From Kibdelosporangium persicum (GTDB lineage Bacteria; Actinomycetota; Actinomycetes; Mycobacteriales; Pseudonocardiaceae), in NCBI RefSeq assembly GCF_013280595.1, contig NZ_JAAATY010000036.1, positions 1 to 64,000 on the forward strand: DNA of 64,000 nucleotides, in the 5' to 3' direction. The translations under genes and the position numbers were made by a program. Shown here piece by piece: positions 8,299-55,096 of this stretch. The notes beneath the pieces were generated by a model, which saw only the letters and a program-made list of their open reading frames with translations, was not told where the DNA came from and did no database searches. Every line of letters starts with the position of its first letter. The stretch's first letter is position 1.

Positions 8299-9600
8299 AT
8301 GGCAAGCGACGGCTGGTCCTTCGAGACCAAGCAGATCCACTCCGGTGCCGCCCCCGACCCGGCCACGGGTGCGCGTGCGACTCCGATCTACCAAACGACT
8401 TCCTACGTCTTCCGGGACACACAGCACGGGGCCGACCTGTTCAGCCTCGCCGAGCCCGGCAACATCTACACCCGGATCAACAACCCCACCCAGGACGTCC
8501 TCGAGCAGCGGATCGCCGCGCTCGAAGGCGGCGTCGCGGCGGTCGCGTTCGCTTCGGGGCAGGCCGCCGAGACGGCCGCGATCCTGACGCTGGCCCGGTC
8601 CGGCGACCACCTGGTGTCCAGTGCCTCGCTCTACGGCGGCACGTACAACCTTTTCCACTACACGCTGCCGAAGCTGGGCATCGAGGTCAGCTTCGTCGAC
8701 GACCCCGACAACCTCGACGAGTGGCGGGCCGCTGTCCGGCCCAACACCAAGCTCTTCTTCGGTGAGTCACTGGCCAACCCGCGCAGCAACGTGCTCGACA
8801 TCGAAGCCGTCGCGGCCGTCGCGCACGAGGCCGGTGTGCCGCTGATCGTCGACAACACCGTGCCGACGCCGTATCTGCTGCGGCCCATCGAGTACGGCGC
8901 CGACATCGTGATCCACTCGGCGACGAAGTACCTCGGCGGGCACGGCACCGCGGTCGCGGGCGTGGTCGTCGACGGCGGCACGTTCGACTTCGGCGCCAAC
9001 GCCTCCCGGTTTCCGGACTTCCACGAACCGGACCCCAGCTACCACGGCCTTCAGTACTGGCCCGCCCTCGGCCACGGCGCCTTCGCGGCCAAACTACGCG
9101 TGCAACTCCTGCGGGACACCGGTGCCGCCATCGCACCGCTGACGAGTTTCCTTGTCATCCAAGGCATCGAGACGCTGTCGCTGCGGCTTGAGCGGCACGT
9201 CGCCAACGCGCAGGCGCTGGCCGAATGGCTTGAGCAGCGTGACGAGGTACAGGCCGTGCACTACGCCGGTCTGCCCAGCAGCAGGTGGTACGCCGCCGCG
9301 CGGAAGTACCTGCCTCGTGGCGCCGGTGCCGTGGTGTCCTTCGAGCTGCGCGGCGGCGTCGAAGCCGGACGGGCCTTTGTGGACGGTACGGAACTGTTCT
9401 CGCAACTGGTGAACATCGGTGACGTGCGCAGCCTGATCGTGCACCCGGCGAGCACGACGCACAGCCAGCTTGCCCCCGACGAGCAGTTGATCGCCGGTGT
9501 GACCCCGGGCCTGGTGCGGCTGTCGGTCGGGATCGAGGGCCTTGAGGACCTCAAGGCGGACCTGGAGGCCGGCTTCCGCGCGGCGAAGGCCGACACGTGA
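8299..9600 (+). CDS. metY: O-acetylhomoserine sulfhydrylase
   Basis: 433 aa, a Cys/Met-metabolism PLP enzyme that makes homocysteine from O-acetylhomoserine and sulfide. The PLP Lys sits in HSATKYLGGHG at residue 210; TPIYQTTSYVF, NIYTRINNPT and LVNIGDVRSLIVHPASTTHSQ are MetY signatures. The long sulfhydrylase-type inserts separate it from MetB/MetC. ATG at 8299 gives the family N-terminus (GWSFETKQIHSG); the frame stays open to 8218. Its stop overlaps the GTG of metX by 4 bases, the usual actinobacterial metY-metX pair. Confidence 0.94.
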   Translation: MASDGWSFETKQIHSGAAPDPATGARATPIYQTTSYVFRDTQHGADLFSLAEPGNIYTRINNPTQDVLEQRIAALEGGVAAVAFASGQAAETAAILTLARSGDHLVSSASLYGGTYNLFHYTLPKLGIEVSFVDDPDNLDEWRAAVRPNTKLFFGESLANPRSNVLDIEAVAAVAHEAGVPLIVDNTVPTPYLLRPIEYGADIVIHSATKYLGGHGTAVAGVVVDGGTFDFGANASRFPDFHEPDPSYHGLQYWPALGHGAFAAKLRVQLLRDTGAAIAPLTSFLVIQGIETLSLRLERHVANAQALAEWLEQRDEVQAVHYAGLPSSRWYAAARKYLPRGAGAVVSFELRGGVEAGRAFVDGTELFSQLVNIGDVRSLIVHPASTTHSQLAPDEQLIAGVTPGLVRLSVGIEGLEDLKADLEAGFRAAKADT

Positions 9601-10745
9601 CCGGCGGCTGGCGGGAGGGGGACCCGGCGGGCCACAGGCGCTGGGTCCATCTCCGGCAGCCGCTGCGCCTGGAGTCCGGAGACGTGTTACCGGACGTGCG
9701 GATCGCGTACGAGACATGGGGTCTGCCCAACGCGTCGAAGTCCAACGCGGTGCTGATCTCGCATGCCCTGACCGGCGACAGCCACGTCGCCGGTTTCCCC
9801 AGCTCACCCCTCGTGAGTGGTTATCCGGGTTCTAACCCTGATAACCACTCACGAGGGGGGAGTGGCGAGTGGGGTGAGCCTGGGTGGTGGGACGGTCTCG
9901 TCGGGCCGGGCAAGGCCGTCGACACGAACCATTACTTCGTGGTGGTGCCGAATGTGCTCGGCGGTTGTCAGGGGAGTACCGGGCCTTCTTCGCTTGCGGC
10001 TGACGGGAAGCCTTGGGGCAGCCGGTTTCCGTCGTTGACCGTGCGGGACCAGGTTGCCGCTGAGGCGCTTTTCGCCGACGCCTTGGGGATTCCGGCGTGG
10101 GCCGCCGTGCTCGGTGGGTCGATGGGCGGGATGCGGGCTCTCGAGTGGGCCGTCATGTACCCGTCCCGGGTGTCGTCCCTGTTGTTGCTCGCTTGTCCCG
10201 CGGCTGCTTCCGCTGACCAGATCGCGTGGGCCTCGCCGCAGTTGCACGCCATCCGGGCGGATCCCGCGTGGCTGGGCGGGGACTACTACTCGTCGCCTCC
10301 TGGGCCGGTGGCCGGGCTGGGCGTCGCTCGGCGGATCGCTCACGTGACCTATCGGAGCGAGGCCGAGCTGACCGCCCGGTTCGGGCGGACTCCCCAGGGC
10401 GACGGCCGGTTCGCCGTCGAGTCCTATTTGGATCATCAGGCTGCGAAACTGGTCCGGCGGTTCGACGCCGGGAGTTACGTGGTGCTGACCGAGGCGATGA
10501 ATTCGCACGACGTCGGCCGGGACCGGGGCGGCGTTTCTTCCGCTTTGCGGCAGGTTCGGGCTCGGACTGTTGTCGCCGGGATCGACTCTGATCGGCTCTA
10601 TCCGCTGTACCAGCAGGAGGAGTTGGCTGCCGGGATTCCGGGGGCCGGGGAGGTGCGGGTGGTCAACTCTCCTTATGGGCACGATGGGTTCCTCATTGAA
10701 ATCGAGCAGGTTTCGGCCTTGGTGAAGGAGTTGCTGGCCGGGTAG
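9597..10745 (+). CDS. metX: Homoserine O-acetyltransferase with an in-frame palindromic repeat
   Basis: 382 aa alpha/beta-hydrolase-fold enzyme acetylating homoserine for metY. The nucleophile is in GGSMGGMRALEW (Ser175), with Asp332 in DSDRLYP and His362 in YGHDGF. AYETWG, SHALTGDSHVAG and NVLGGCQGSTGPSS are conserved. Between SHVAG and PGWWDG, where homologues have roughly 8-10 residues, this protein has about 26 (SSPLVSGYPGSNPDNHSRGG and flanks); that DNA is a 52-bp palindrome repeated elsewhere in the window. The reading frame is preserved and all three catalytic residues remain, so the enzyme may still work. Residue 31 is encoded by the rare codon TTA. Confidence 0.95.
   Translation: MTGGWREGDPAGHRRWVHLRQPLRLESGDVLPDVRIAYETWGLPNASKSNAVLISHALTGDSHVAGFPSSPLVSGYPGSNPDNHSRGGSGEWGEPGWWDGLVGPGKAVDTNHYFVVVPNVLGGCQGSTGPSSLAADGKPWGSRFPSLTVRDQVAAEALFADALGIPAWAAVLGGSMGGMRALEWAVMYPSRVSSLLLLACPAAASADQIAWASPQLHAIRADPAWLGGDYYSSPPGPVAGLGVARRIAHVTYRSEAELTARFGRTPQGDGRFAVESYLDHQAAKLVRRFDAGSYVVLTEAMNSHDVGRDRGGVSSALRQVRARTVVAGIDSDRLYPLYQQEELAAGIPGAGEVRVVNSPYGHDGFLIEIEQVSALVKELLAG
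9797..9860 (+). repeat. CTCGTGAGTG palindromic element, copy A, inside metX
   Basis: Arms CCCCTCGTGAGTGGTTATC (9807-9825) and its exact complement (9840-9858) are 19 bp each; inside the loop GGGTT (9827-9831) pairs with AACCC (9834-9838), so almost all 52 bases can pair. The 10 bases to the left, CCCCAGCTCA (9797-9806), are the same as those to the left of copy D. The element is read in frame as about 17-20 residues of metX with no stop codon. Same loop orientation as copy D. Confidence 0.92.
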
Positions 10746-15557: not shown

Positions 15558-16346
15558 ATGAGGCGATCGTTCCGTGTCCTGTTATGCCTCGCGGCAACCG
15601 CCGTGGGCCTGACCACGCTGTCGGCACCAGCCAACGCGGCTGCGCACAACTACGTGGCACTCGGTGATTCCTACTCATCCGGTGTCGGTACCGGCGGCAC
15701 GTACAGCGGTGGTGGCTGCAAGCGCAGCACCAACGCGTATCCGCAACTGTGGGCGAACACCCATGCGCCCGCCTCCTTCAACTTCGCGGCGTGCTCCGGC
15801 GCGACCACAACGGATGTGCTCAACAGCCAGCTCGGGTCGCTGACGGCACGCACGACACTGGTGACCATCTCGATCGGCGGCAACGACGCTGGCTTCGTCG
15901 ACGTGATCACCACGTGCACCCTGGGCAGCGACTCCACGTGCGTCAACCGGGTCGAACAAGGCAAGACGTTCGCCCGCAACACCCTGCCCGCCAGACTGGA
16001 CAACGTGTACTCGGCGATCCGGCAGCGGTCACCGTCCGCGCGCGTGGTCGTGCTCGGCTACCCGAGGTTCTACAAGGTGCCCGGCTCCTGCAACGTCGGG
16101 CTCTCGGACACCAAGCGTTCGGCCATCAACAGCGGCGCGGACGTGCTCGCCCAGGTGACCGCCCAGCGGGCGGCCGCGGCCGGCTTCACGTTCGTCGACA
16201 TCCGCGGCGCGTGGACCGGTCACGAGATCTGTTCCGGCGACTGGTGGCTCAACAGTCTCACGTGGCCGGTGGAGGAGTCCTACCACCCCAACAAGAACGG
16301 TCAGGCGCGCGGCTACCTGCCCGCACTCAACGCCGTTACGGGGTGA
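15558..16346 (+). CDS. Secreted SGNH/GDSL esterase
   Basis: 262 aa, with a Sec signal peptide of about 28 residues ending PANAAA. Blocks: VALGDSYSSGVG (Ser), CSGATTTDV (Gly), SIGGNDAGF (Asn), and a C-terminal EESYHPNKNG (His). Three Cys pairs are expected, as in the single-domain Streptomyces SGNH esterases. GGAGGA at 15548-15553 fixes the ATG at 15558. It is shorter than and distinct from the SGNH protein at 5787-6659. Two palindromic repeats follow its stop. Confidence 0.92.
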   Translation: MRRSFRVLLCLAATAVGLTTLSAPANAAAHNYVALGDSYSSGVGTGGTYSGGGCKRSTNAYPQLWANTHAPASFNFAACSGATTTDVLNSQLGSLTARTTLVTISIGGNDAGFVDVITTCTLGSDSTCVNRVEQGKTFARNTLPARLDNVYSAIRQRSPSARVVVLGYPRFYKVPGSCNVGLSDTKRSAINSGADVLAQVTAQRAAAAGFTFVDIRGAWTGHEICSGDWWLNSLTWPVEESYHPNKNGQARGYLPALNAVTG

Positions 16347-16352
16347 CTTCTC

Positions 16353-16409
16353 TCGTGAGTGGTTTGTCCCACTCGTAGTGCAGCTGTATTCCGAACAAAC
16401 CACTCACGA
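16353..16409. repeat. CTCGTGAGTG palindromic element, copy B
   Basis: TCGTGAGTGGTTTGT (16353-16367) and its exact complement ACAAACCACTCACGA (16395-16409) flank a 27-base loop. It starts 6 bp after the SGNH stop codon. The loop is longer than, and unlike, those of copies A, D, E and F. Confidence 0.85.
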
Positions 16410-16437
16410 CAGGCGTACCAGCCGGGCTGGGAACCGT

Positions 16438-16481
16438 CTCGTGAGTGGTTTGTTCTGTTACCGGGACAAACCACTCACGAG
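16438..16481. repeat. CTCGTGAGTG palindromic element, copy C
   Basis: CTCGTGAGTGGTTTGT (16438-16453) and its exact complement (16466-16481) flank a 12-base loop. It lies 28 bp from copy B and shares B's GGTTTGT arm variant, so B and C probably share a recent origin. Confidence 0.88.
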
Positions 16482-16507
16482 GGGACCGCCTGTGGCTGGA
16501 CGGGTGG

Positions 16508-21289: not shown

Positions 21290-21352
21290 CCCCAGCTCAC
21301 CCCTCGTGAGTGTTTATCCGTGTTCTAACCCTGACAAACACTCACGAGGGGG
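21290..21352 (+). repeat. CTCGTGAGTG palindromic element, copy D
   Basis: CCCCTCGTGAGTGTTTATC (21300-21318) and GACAAACACTCACGAGGGG (21333-21351) pair over 19 bp with one mismatch. Loop CGTGTTCTAACCCT, same orientation as copy A. The preceding CCCCAGCTCA is shared with copy A. It fills the junction of two convergent genes, so it can act as a two-way terminator. Confidence 0.92.
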
Positions 21353-34305: not shown

Positions 34306-34355
34306 CCCTCGTGAGTGTTTATCAGGGTTAGAACACGGATAAACACTCACGAGGT
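34306..34355 (-). repeat. CTCGTGAGTG palindromic element, copy E
   Basis: CCTCGTGAGTGTTTATC (34307-34323) and its exact complement (34338-34354) flank AGGGTTAGAACACG. The loop is the reverse complement of copy D's, so the element is inverted relative to D. It lies between two convergent genes. Confidence 0.92.
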
Positions 34356-40666: not shown

Positions 40667-42025
40667 GTGGACACAGTCATCACGGGCGCGTACGTCGCGA
40701 CAGTCGATGAGCGGGGCACGGAACACACCGACGGATATGTGGCCGTTGTGGACGGTCGGATCGCCGCGGTGGGTTCCGGTGCCGTGCCCGAGCAGTACGC
40801 GAGCCTGAACCGGGTCGACGCGTCCGGATGTCTTGTCACGCCGGGCCTGGTGAACACCCACCACCACCTCTACCAGTGGGGGACGCGGGGCTACGCCCAG
40901 CAGGAGGACCTGTTCGGCTGGTTGGTCGCGCTGTATCCGGTCTGGGCCGGGATCGACGCCGAGATCGTGTCCGCGACCTCCGCCGCCGGCCTCGGGATGC
41001 TCGCGCTCAGCGGCTGCACGACCGCTGCCGATCACCACTACGTGTTCCCCCGTGCGGGCGGGGACGTGTTCGGCGCGTTGATCGAAGCGGGGCGGCGTAT
41101 CGGGATTCGGCTGCACGCTGTGCGTGGCTCGATGGACCGTGGCGAATCCGGCGGCGGCCTGCCGCCGGACTCCATTGTGGAGACTCTGGACGCCGCGCTG
41201 GAGCACACCGAGCGCGCGATCACCGAGTACCACGATCCCGCGCCGGACGCGAAGATCCAGGTCGCGGTGGGTCCGTGCTCGCCGTTCTCGGCAAGCCTCG
41301 ACTTGATGCGCGGTGCCGCCGAGATCGCCCGCGAGCACGGCGTCCGGCTGCACACGCACCTGGCCGAGACCAAGGACGAGGAAGAGCAGTGCCTGCGGGA
41401 GTTCGGACAGACCCCGGTGCGGTACGCCGAAAGCCTCGGCTGGCTGGGTGAGGACGTCTGGCTGGCGCACGGCGTGCACCTCAAGGGCGACGAGATCCCG
41501 TTGATGGCCAGGACCGGCACGGGGATCGCGCACTGCCCGAGCTCGAACGCGCGTGTCGGCGCGGGAATGGCGCCGGTGCGGGCCTTGCTGGACGCGGGCG
41601 CGCCAGTGGGTCTCGGCGTGGACGGGGTGGCGTCCAATGAGTCCGGTGGACTTGCCGAGGAACTACGGCAGGCGTTGCTGACGGCTCGTCAGCGCGGCGG
41701 TCCGGACGCGTTGACCGCGCGGCAGGCGTTGCGGATCGGCACGATGGGCGGCGCCCGGTGCCTGGGACGTCAGGAGCACATCGGGTCCGTCGAACCGGGC
41801 AAACAGGCGGACCTGGCGGTGTGGCGGCTGGACACGCTGAAGCACGCCGGGATCGCGGACCCCGTCGCGGCTCTCGTCTTCGGGCGCGTGCCGCCGTTGG
41901 AGCTGCTGCTCGTCGGCGGCGAACCAGTGGTCGAGCATGACCACCTGCTCACCGCCGACGAGCCGACCCTGACCCACAACCTCAAAAACGCCTGCTCAAC
42001 CCTCGTGAGTGTTTATCAGGGTTAG
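40667..42025 (+). CDS. 8-Oxoguanine deaminase with repeat-encoded C-terminus
   Basis: 452 aa amidohydrolase. NTHHHLYQW at about 63-71, GPCSPFSASLDLM, and LHTHLAETKDEEEQC with the later AHGVHL and GVDGVASNES metal ligands match 8-oxoguanine deaminase (8-oxoguanine to urate) and guanine-deaminase relatives. GTG at 40667. Residues 445-452 (TLVSVYQG) and the TAG stop come from palindromic copy F, so the gene's native end has been replaced or extended. The LLM gene lies 10 bp upstream. Confidence 0.88.
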   Translation: MDTVITGAYVATVDERGTEHTDGYVAVVDGRIAAVGSGAVPEQYASLNRVDASGCLVTPGLVNTHHHLYQWGTRGYAQQEDLFGWLVALYPVWAGIDAEIVSATSAAGLGMLALSGCTTAADHHYVFPRAGGDVFGALIEAGRRIGIRLHAVRGSMDRGESGGGLPPDSIVETLDAALEHTERAITEYHDPAPDAKIQVAVGPCSPFSASLDLMRGAAEIAREHGVRLHTHLAETKDEEEQCLREFGQTPVRYAESLGWLGEDVWLAHGVHLKGDEIPLMARTGTGIAHCPSSNARVGAGMAPVRALLDAGAPVGLGVDGVASNESGGLAEELRQALLTARQRGGPDALTARQALRIGTMGGARCLGRQEHIGSVEPGKQADLAVWRLDTLKHAGIADPVAALVFGRVPPLELLLVGGEPVVEHDHLLTADEPTLTHNLKNACSTLVSVYQG

Positions 42026-42050
42026 AACACCGATAAACACTCACGAGGGG
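42000..42050 (-). repeat. CTCGTGAGTG palindromic element, copy F
   Basis: CCCTCGTGAGTGTTTATC (42000-42017) and its exact complement (42032-42049), 18 bp each, around AGGGTTAGAACACC. Same orientation as copy E. It overlaps the 3' end of the 8-oxoguanine deaminase gene and separates it from the convergent FadD. Confidence 0.92.
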
Positions 42051-54611: not shown

Positions 54612-55096
54612 ACGCATCTGTCATGGGACCCCGCCGACCTGGCGTGTGTCAAGAGATCCCGCCCGGTTGTCCACAAGCGGAGCCGGTTGTGGACAACTGG
54701 CGTCTGGTGATCAGAACATGTCAGGGGTTTGCGGTAACGTGAAAATCAGGGGTTCCCCCTGGGGAATTGGTGATGCGGTGACGCTTGCCTTTGAAGGTGC
54801 CTTTCTGCTTGGGGCCTTCGGCGGCGGGAGAAACAGCTGCCCCGCTGGCGGGCAGGCCACCAAGAGGGCGCATGTGGTGGCAGTTCTCGCACCTTGACCG
54901 CTTGATCGACAGCTGTGTTCAAAGGTGCCGGAGCGCCCACGAAGCCCACCTCTGAGCTCGCGCGCAAGCTGAAGGCTGCCCTTGTCCTTGCGCGCTGGGC
55001 CTTCTTCGCCGGCCCGCGCGAGCTGAGGGCTGAGCGGCACTTGCGCGTTGTCCTTGGGCTTGCGTCGTGCCGCGGGTTGTCCCGGCCCGGTTTTGG
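54612..55096. other. Intergenic region, no gene recognised
   Basis: About 485 bp between the GH81 promoter and the end of mtnD. TTCCCC-CT-GGGGAA (54753-54766) is a short hairpin. AAGGTGCC and its complement recur three times between about 54793 and 54928. Open frames here do not look like known protein; a decayed gene is possible but not supported. Confidence 0.45.

Follow-up and report, generated by a model that had tools for sequence, protein, structure and literature searches.

The DNA analysed here (the window) is a stretch of 64,000 nucleotides on contig C36 of the Kibdelosporangium persicum genome (G000), a 10.35-Mb draft of 89 contigs, and seven genomes of the same genus (G001-G007) were used for comparison. 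In this window, the gene for homoserine O-acetyltransferase (metX) follows that for O-acetylhomoserine sulfhydrylase (metY) on the + strand, and a palindrome is present inside the metX coding sequence, as the initial annotation of this DNA had proposed. The genes and the parts of the palindromic stretch are as follows.

8299..9600, + strand: metY, O-acetylhomoserine sulfhydrylase, upstream of and overlapping metX (NF005872, 823.4 bits; called start, the ORF being open from 8218)
9597..10745, + strand: metX, homoserine O-acetyltransferase, an open ORF of 382 aa with a GTG start that overlaps the metY stop (GTGA); NF047917, 515.8 bits
9795..9875, + strand: inserted stretch (residues 67-93), 81 nt replacing 6 nt of six of the seven same-genus relatives (empty-site comparison and protein alignment)
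9803..9862, no strand: near-perfect palindrome, arms 9803-9831 and 9834-9862 (29 nt each, 93% complementary, 2 nt apart)
9810..9855, + strand: 46-bp core of a repeat family with CTCGTGAGTG arms; read along the + strand, its readable orientation, the centre is CT
9794..9809, + strand: left tail TTTCCCCAGCTCACCC, whose word CCCCAGCT recurs next to other copies (flank word count)
9856..9875, + strand: right side of the insert, G-rich, GAGTGG repeated, no match to the tail word (sequence and flank scoring)

The extra loop of MetX

The metX product exceeds the cut-off of the NCBIfam MetX family (NF047917; 515.8 bits versus 475), and its ORF runs through the palindrome with neither a frameshift nor a stop. 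Residues Ser175, Asp332, and His362, which we take to be the catalytic residues of MetX and which had been thought to be retained, indeed occupy invariant columns in an alignment of 45 sequences. The metX site measures 96 nt in G000; six relatives have 21 nt there and G005 has 36 nt, and the palindrome is absent from the site in all seven same-genus genomes. Relative to the six genomes with the short site, metX has gained a net 75 bp, corresponding to 25 residues between Gly66 and Glu94; in the protein, FPSSPLVSGYPGSNPDNHSRGGSGEWG takes the place of the PG that precedes EPGWW in G001-G004. The initial annotation had correctly recognized that the frame stays open across the palindrome, while its estimate of 17-20 contributed residues falls short of this net gain. 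Nor do the extra residues coincide exactly with a 52-bp palindrome, since the left tail TTTCCCCAGCTCACCC and some 20 bp at the right-hand side are extra as well, making the inserted stretch (9795-9875) the wider of the two.

We looked for a longer loop in MetX proteins of relatives as well. The loop motif was recovered from 105 of the 110 loci surveyed (five lacked it, and the set contains at least five loci twice), and the loop comprised 13 residues in 93 loci, 8 in 10, 6 in one, and 33 in G000 only; no loop exceeding 13 residues was present in the 104 further motif-bearing rows. The refutation that had been proposed, an equally long loop in relatives lacking the repeat, was not borne out. 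The insertion site is a loop of naturally varying length (6, 8, 13). These comparisons indicate that the palindrome in metX is an insertion through which the loop has gained 25 residues. The RNA of the region (9780-9890) is predicted to fold with -71.9 kcal/mol (z -6.85), in keeping with the very stable mid-gene hairpin that had been anticipated.

One might ask whether the insert is an artefact of assembly at a short repeat. The repeat is abundant in an assembly that consists of 89 draft contigs, and in another copy an insertion sequence (IS) leads into a stretch of N. The metX insert, however, comprises no more than 81 nt, its net gain over the six relatives is divisible by three, it has the only orientation and phase that can be read through, and its flanks continue a single syntenic gene, so that we give an artefact hardly any credence.

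Condition of the metX gene and its product

Values of dN/dS between G000 and its relatives amounted to 0.06-0.14 for the 3' part of metX (six of the seven pairs were defined and one was saturated) and to 0.09-0.23 over 66 codons of the 5' part preceding the insert, and pairs of the other genomes gave 0.04-0.19 (two undefined). Judged from these ratios, the metX sequence bears the mark of purifying selection; such values are averaged over time and give no date for the insertion. The AlphaFold model of MetX reached a mean pLDDT of 89 and a pTM of 0.90, and residues 69-93 form the only segment below 50. In the model, the loop has low confidence and no secondary structure; an insert lacking aligned relatives would by itself give such a low pLDDT. 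A Foldseek search matched the model to MetX from M. tuberculosis (7ryt) with TM scores of 0.89 by query and 0.92-0.93 by target. The fold of MetX, as modelled, is intact around the low-confidence loop, and the enzyme probably works.

The codon-use score of metX is 0.01 per codon in G000, -0.27 to 0.18 in six relatives, and 0.30 in G005. We considered the weak codon use as a sign of decay of metX in G000 and rejected this idea, since low scores are shared by most of the genus. Another possibility is that the insertion broke the gene, either because the hairpin ends transcription or because the loop kills the enzyme, leaving a young pseudogene. The repeat family is placed in the manner of a terminator (see below), the metX hairpin is predicted to be as stable as stated above, and the signal of purifying selection is an average over time. 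Against this stand the uninterrupted frame, the conserved catalytic residues, the low dN/dS on both sides of the insert, and a model that is intact outside the loop. In addition, only one full-length metX was found in G000 (32 of the 568 first-look candidates were scored), and losing it should mean auxotrophy unless another route exists. We therefore consider a pseudogene unlikely.

It is also conceivable that the hairpin now serves to regulate metX, through attenuation or pausing, or that the loop is a new functional part of the enzyme. The position in the middle of a biosynthetic gene and the membership in a family of covarying hairpins would fit such a role; its absence from the seven same-genus genomes, the lack of any RNA family match near the gathering score, and the low-confidence loop predicted without secondary structure make it very improbable.

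At its start, G000 metX resembles that of G001 and G002, and in the adjoining run from 9756 to 10256, which may be a conversion tract that extends across the insert, it resembles that of G003, G004, and G007. This run, which was chosen after looking, was equalled in 33 of 10000 shuffles by a maximal-segment test and in 423 of 5000 by a single-breakpoint test, and trees of the 5' and 3' parts of metX placed G000 differently, with compatible splits. As an explanation of the insert, a recombination junction was suggestive, yet the left edge of the run precedes the insert by 39-50 bp, and we did not use it.

A family of gene-end palindromes

The metX palindrome belongs to a family of repeats. Its 46-bp core is present in 208 copies in G000, 54 in G007, and one in G002, and is absent from the other five genomes of the genus, as would be expected of a recent spread. 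A search of 390 genomes of the family Pseudonocardiaceae recovered same-core matches in seven of them. With only the 10-bp arms fixed (CTCGTGAGTG/CACTCACGAG), exact copies number 307 in G000, and the eight genomes of the genus carry 307, 298, 89, 79, 53, 7, 3, and 2 same-arm copies. Such arms were found in 15 of 60 genomes and in none of the 24 that represent other families within the order; in seven other genomes of the family, the copy numbers were 94, 49, 6, 2, 1, 1, and 1. The two highest of these come from two other genera (G027 with 94 and G009 with 49 copies), and the listed copies of G009 have a different inner core. Within G000, the density per 100 kb is 6.75 elements in contig C1, 1.25 in C2, and 1.5 in C3.

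The half-site pattern (up to two mismatches) matches eight times in the window, compared to 0.04 matches expected by chance. The following further copies were located.

16350..16490, no strand: variant CTCGTGAGTG palindromes in a cluster, following a + strand gene ending at 16346; inner stem GTTTGT rather than GTTATC
21303..21348, no strand: family copy flanked by convergent genes and matched by one at this site in G007 (K. philippinense)
34308..34353, no strand: family copy between convergent genes; the G001 copy at this site has another inner core and lies beside 3.7 kb of extra DNA
42002..42047, no strand: family copy at the 3' end of a called + strand gene, in a convergent arrangement

Elsewhere in the window, positions 54667-54696 hold an inverted pair of TTGTCCACA, presumably a DnaA-box-like word (two matches versus 0.31 expected, equalled in 5 of 100 shuffles).

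Across 29 copies from five genera, hand-picked so as to be diverse, nine of the ten arm pairs are constant and eleven inner pairs have changed on both sides; 95.3% of the cells are paired, compared to 78.5% after shuffling, a value that none of 500 shuffles reached. Two of the five measures of covariation were weaker (the number of pairs changed was reached by 46 of 500 shuffles, and the number of pair types by 18 of 500). Invariant arms together with a covarying inner stem show that pairing is kept throughout, and sequence in the arms. The arm word itself occurs 94 times in 800 kb, and 82 of these occurrences are exactly paired; for ten of the other twelve the partner is one base off, and two are cut by an IS (partners judged by eye). 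Allowing one mismatch, the outer-arm word CCCCAGCT was detected in 27 of the 186 flanks of 93 copies (14.5%) versus 3.7% of shuffled flanks, and on both sides of one copy only. We rejected an assignment of the element to an Rfam family, since all matches, those to microRNA models and one to a lncRNA model, stayed below threshold and none came near the gathering score.

The copies are concentrated at the ends of genes. The 1.664 Mb of G000 that were surveyed hold 70 copies. A called gene 3' end falls within -10..20 bp of 51 of these, compared to 10-14% for random intergenic positions; the corresponding figures for 0.4 Mb of G007 are 19 of 23 copies versus 4.5%. Under a wider rule (overlap or a distance of up to 40 bp), 30 of the G000 copies lie between two 3' ends, 25 adjoin a single one, and 14 adjoin none, the remaining one being the metX copy; in G007, these numbers are 10, 10, and 3. 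The median distance from copy to gene 3' end is 4.5 bp in C1, and 19 called genes in G000 and seven in G007 have the TGA within CTCGTGAG as their stop.

Thirteen further copies that had been fetched for their long readable frames lay at a gene 3' end in ten cases and inside a called gene in none. Adding these and 12 others (13 G000 loci of a 20-locus set, less one repeat) to the 70 gives 95 distinct G000 copies, among which the metX copy is the only one seen in the middle of a gene; one other contributes a C-terminal tail. This count of 1 in 95 is a low bound, because the gene caller misses genes like metX, whose codon bias is weak, and the 0 of 93 copies inside a called gene may hide in-gene cases. 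A whole-genome search for peptides of the readable frame scored 150 of 642 candidates. The tail belongs to an ABC transporter ATPase (Pfam) at L088:3054-4139, whose last residues, LVSGYPGSNPDKHSRGLSRGDA, derive largely from the element in the same frame as used in metX. In 115 element rows (some copies twice), 33 frames are open across the element, and we scanned metX and 20 others for Pfam domains (two were clipped at the edge of the locus). The sole domain match in these 20, an open frame with ornithine/arginine decarboxylase and AdoMet decarboxylase domains, was discarded as an insertion since both domains lie wholly downstream of the element.

As to the reading frames of the element itself, exactly one of the six is free of stops in 59 of 68 copies of the 46-bp core, two are in seven copies, and none is in two. 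It is this single stop-free frame through which metX reads the element. A selfish repeat specialized in in-frame insertion into proteins, similar to the Rickettsia palindromic elements (RPEs), could account for the metX copy and for the ATPase tail coded in the same frame. Such a specialist is, however, difficult to reconcile with a mid-gene share of 1 in 95 distinct copies, with 55 of 70 copies in unselected stretches at called gene 3' ends, and with stops in five of the six frames of those 59 copies; we regard it as highly improbable.

Terminator-like character and probable mobility

Many copies place a stable hairpin just past a stop codon: in 56-mers, the median stability of the copies was -34.9 kcal/mol, compared to -17.9 kcal/mol for random genomic sequences. 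At one site, that at 16350, G004, G005, and G006 lack the element and carry unrelated GC hairpins instead (-33 to -38 kcal/mol), although a single site makes for a small sample. We did not find a U-tract after the hairpin (mean T content of 0.25 in the next 8 nt, four or more T in 17 of 114 flanks), which speaks against a terminator function. Terminators without U-tracts occur in high-GC actinobacteria. By position and predicted stability, the element is terminator-like; a classical intrinsic terminator is not supported.

With regard to its movement, mobilization by a RAYT transposase was rejected, as a search of the eight genus genomes with the Y1_Tnp profile (PF01797), the one mobilizing family looked for, returned no match in G000, G001, G002, and G007, all of which carry copies, and matches only in G003-G006. 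With respect to a possible MITE nature, inverted arms are present at metX, and no clear target duplication was evident by eye. We also noted the same IS-like DNA at the centre of two palindromes in C1 of G000 (at about 308, L046, and at 92009, L050); next to the second palindrome, in L050, a series of N that marks either a gap or masking is followed by the end of an ORF with a match to an integrase core (PF13683). Some IS elements target REP palindromes. The family is probably a mobile, bidirectional, terminator-like hairpin.

The reading that we favour, with a probability of about 0.72, is a chance insertion of this mobile terminator-like palindrome into metX that has been tolerated because it is in frame, lies in a variable loop, and is covered by ribosomes; it would not be adaptive. 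In the G000 lineage, a palindrome whose usual place is at gene 3' ends would have entered metX by accident, in the orientation and phase of its one stop-free frame and with a net length that is a multiple of three. Ribosomes following closely behind RNA polymerase may keep the metX RNA from folding. The hairpin would do little harm in metX because translation is close, metX starting in the metY stop, and because the loop is tolerant. The 14 of 70 copies that are intergenic without a called 3' end nearby fit this interpretation less well.

RPEs are about 150 bp long, and nearly half of them reside in ORFs (PMC10969869). The metX copy resembles them as a palindromic repeat that is open in one frame and read through inside a housekeeping protein; unlike them, the element measures 46 bp plus short tails and has 1 of 95 copies in mid-gene. 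Insertions of QMITEs in Coxiella are sometimes in frame in mid-ORF or lengthen the 3' end (PMC5896051). Short inverted-repeat structure and in-frame or 3'-end-extending cases are shared with QMITEs, whereas the copies described here gather at gene 3' ends, and neither a target-duplication structure nor a related transposase came to light for them. In-frame repeats of this kind are hence already known from Rickettsia (PMC10969869) and Coxiella (PMC5896051) and are not confined to Rickettsia, from which they had been said to be mainly known. With REP/RAYT systems, the family has in common that it is short, extragenic, hairpin-forming, and of high copy number (208 same-core and 307 same-arm copies), and that an IS interrupts two of its copies at the centre; it differs in that four copy-bearing genomes (G000, G001, G002, and G007) have no Y1_Tnp match. 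The metX element is neither of the Rickettsia type by placement nor a RAYT REP by transposase. What holds of the initial annotation is an in-frame palindromic insertion in a variable-length loop of an actinobacterial metX, and not a Rickettsia-type element that settles inside proteins. Rather, the family appears to act as an extragenic palindrome or terminator, with RPE-like behaviour in one instance, that of metX.

The DNA-uptake-sequence terminators of Neisseria and Pasteurellaceae consist of an invariant 10-bp word in inverted pairs that form hairpins downstream of genes (PMC1852404). Our family likewise has an invariant 10-bp word in inverted pairs at gene ends, in contrast to those terminators with no free CTCGTGAGTG word found in the 800 kb. 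The open-licence PubMed Central text that was searchable contained no actinobacterial in-frame case of such repeats and no description of the CTCGTGAGTG repeat (a CRISPR repeat and a PCR primer were among the matches). To our knowledge, no uptake function has been ascribed to the CTCGTGAGTG word.

Invariant arms and covarying cores point to a putative recognizing factor. A broader and tentative idea, which we think has the odds against it, is that CTCGTGAGTG palindromes are mobile terminators of the Pseudonocardiaceae whose arms are recognized by some protein and whose inner stem is replaced by lineage with pairing kept, displacing ordinary terminators, and that the metX copy is silenced only by coupled translation. 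The metX copy allows a direct test of whether translation suppresses a terminator-like hairpin within a gene, for which the hundreds of intergenic family copies serve as controls. If the palindromes are indeed mobile terminators, the metX copy would constitute a natural experiment in which a terminator is held in a reading frame.
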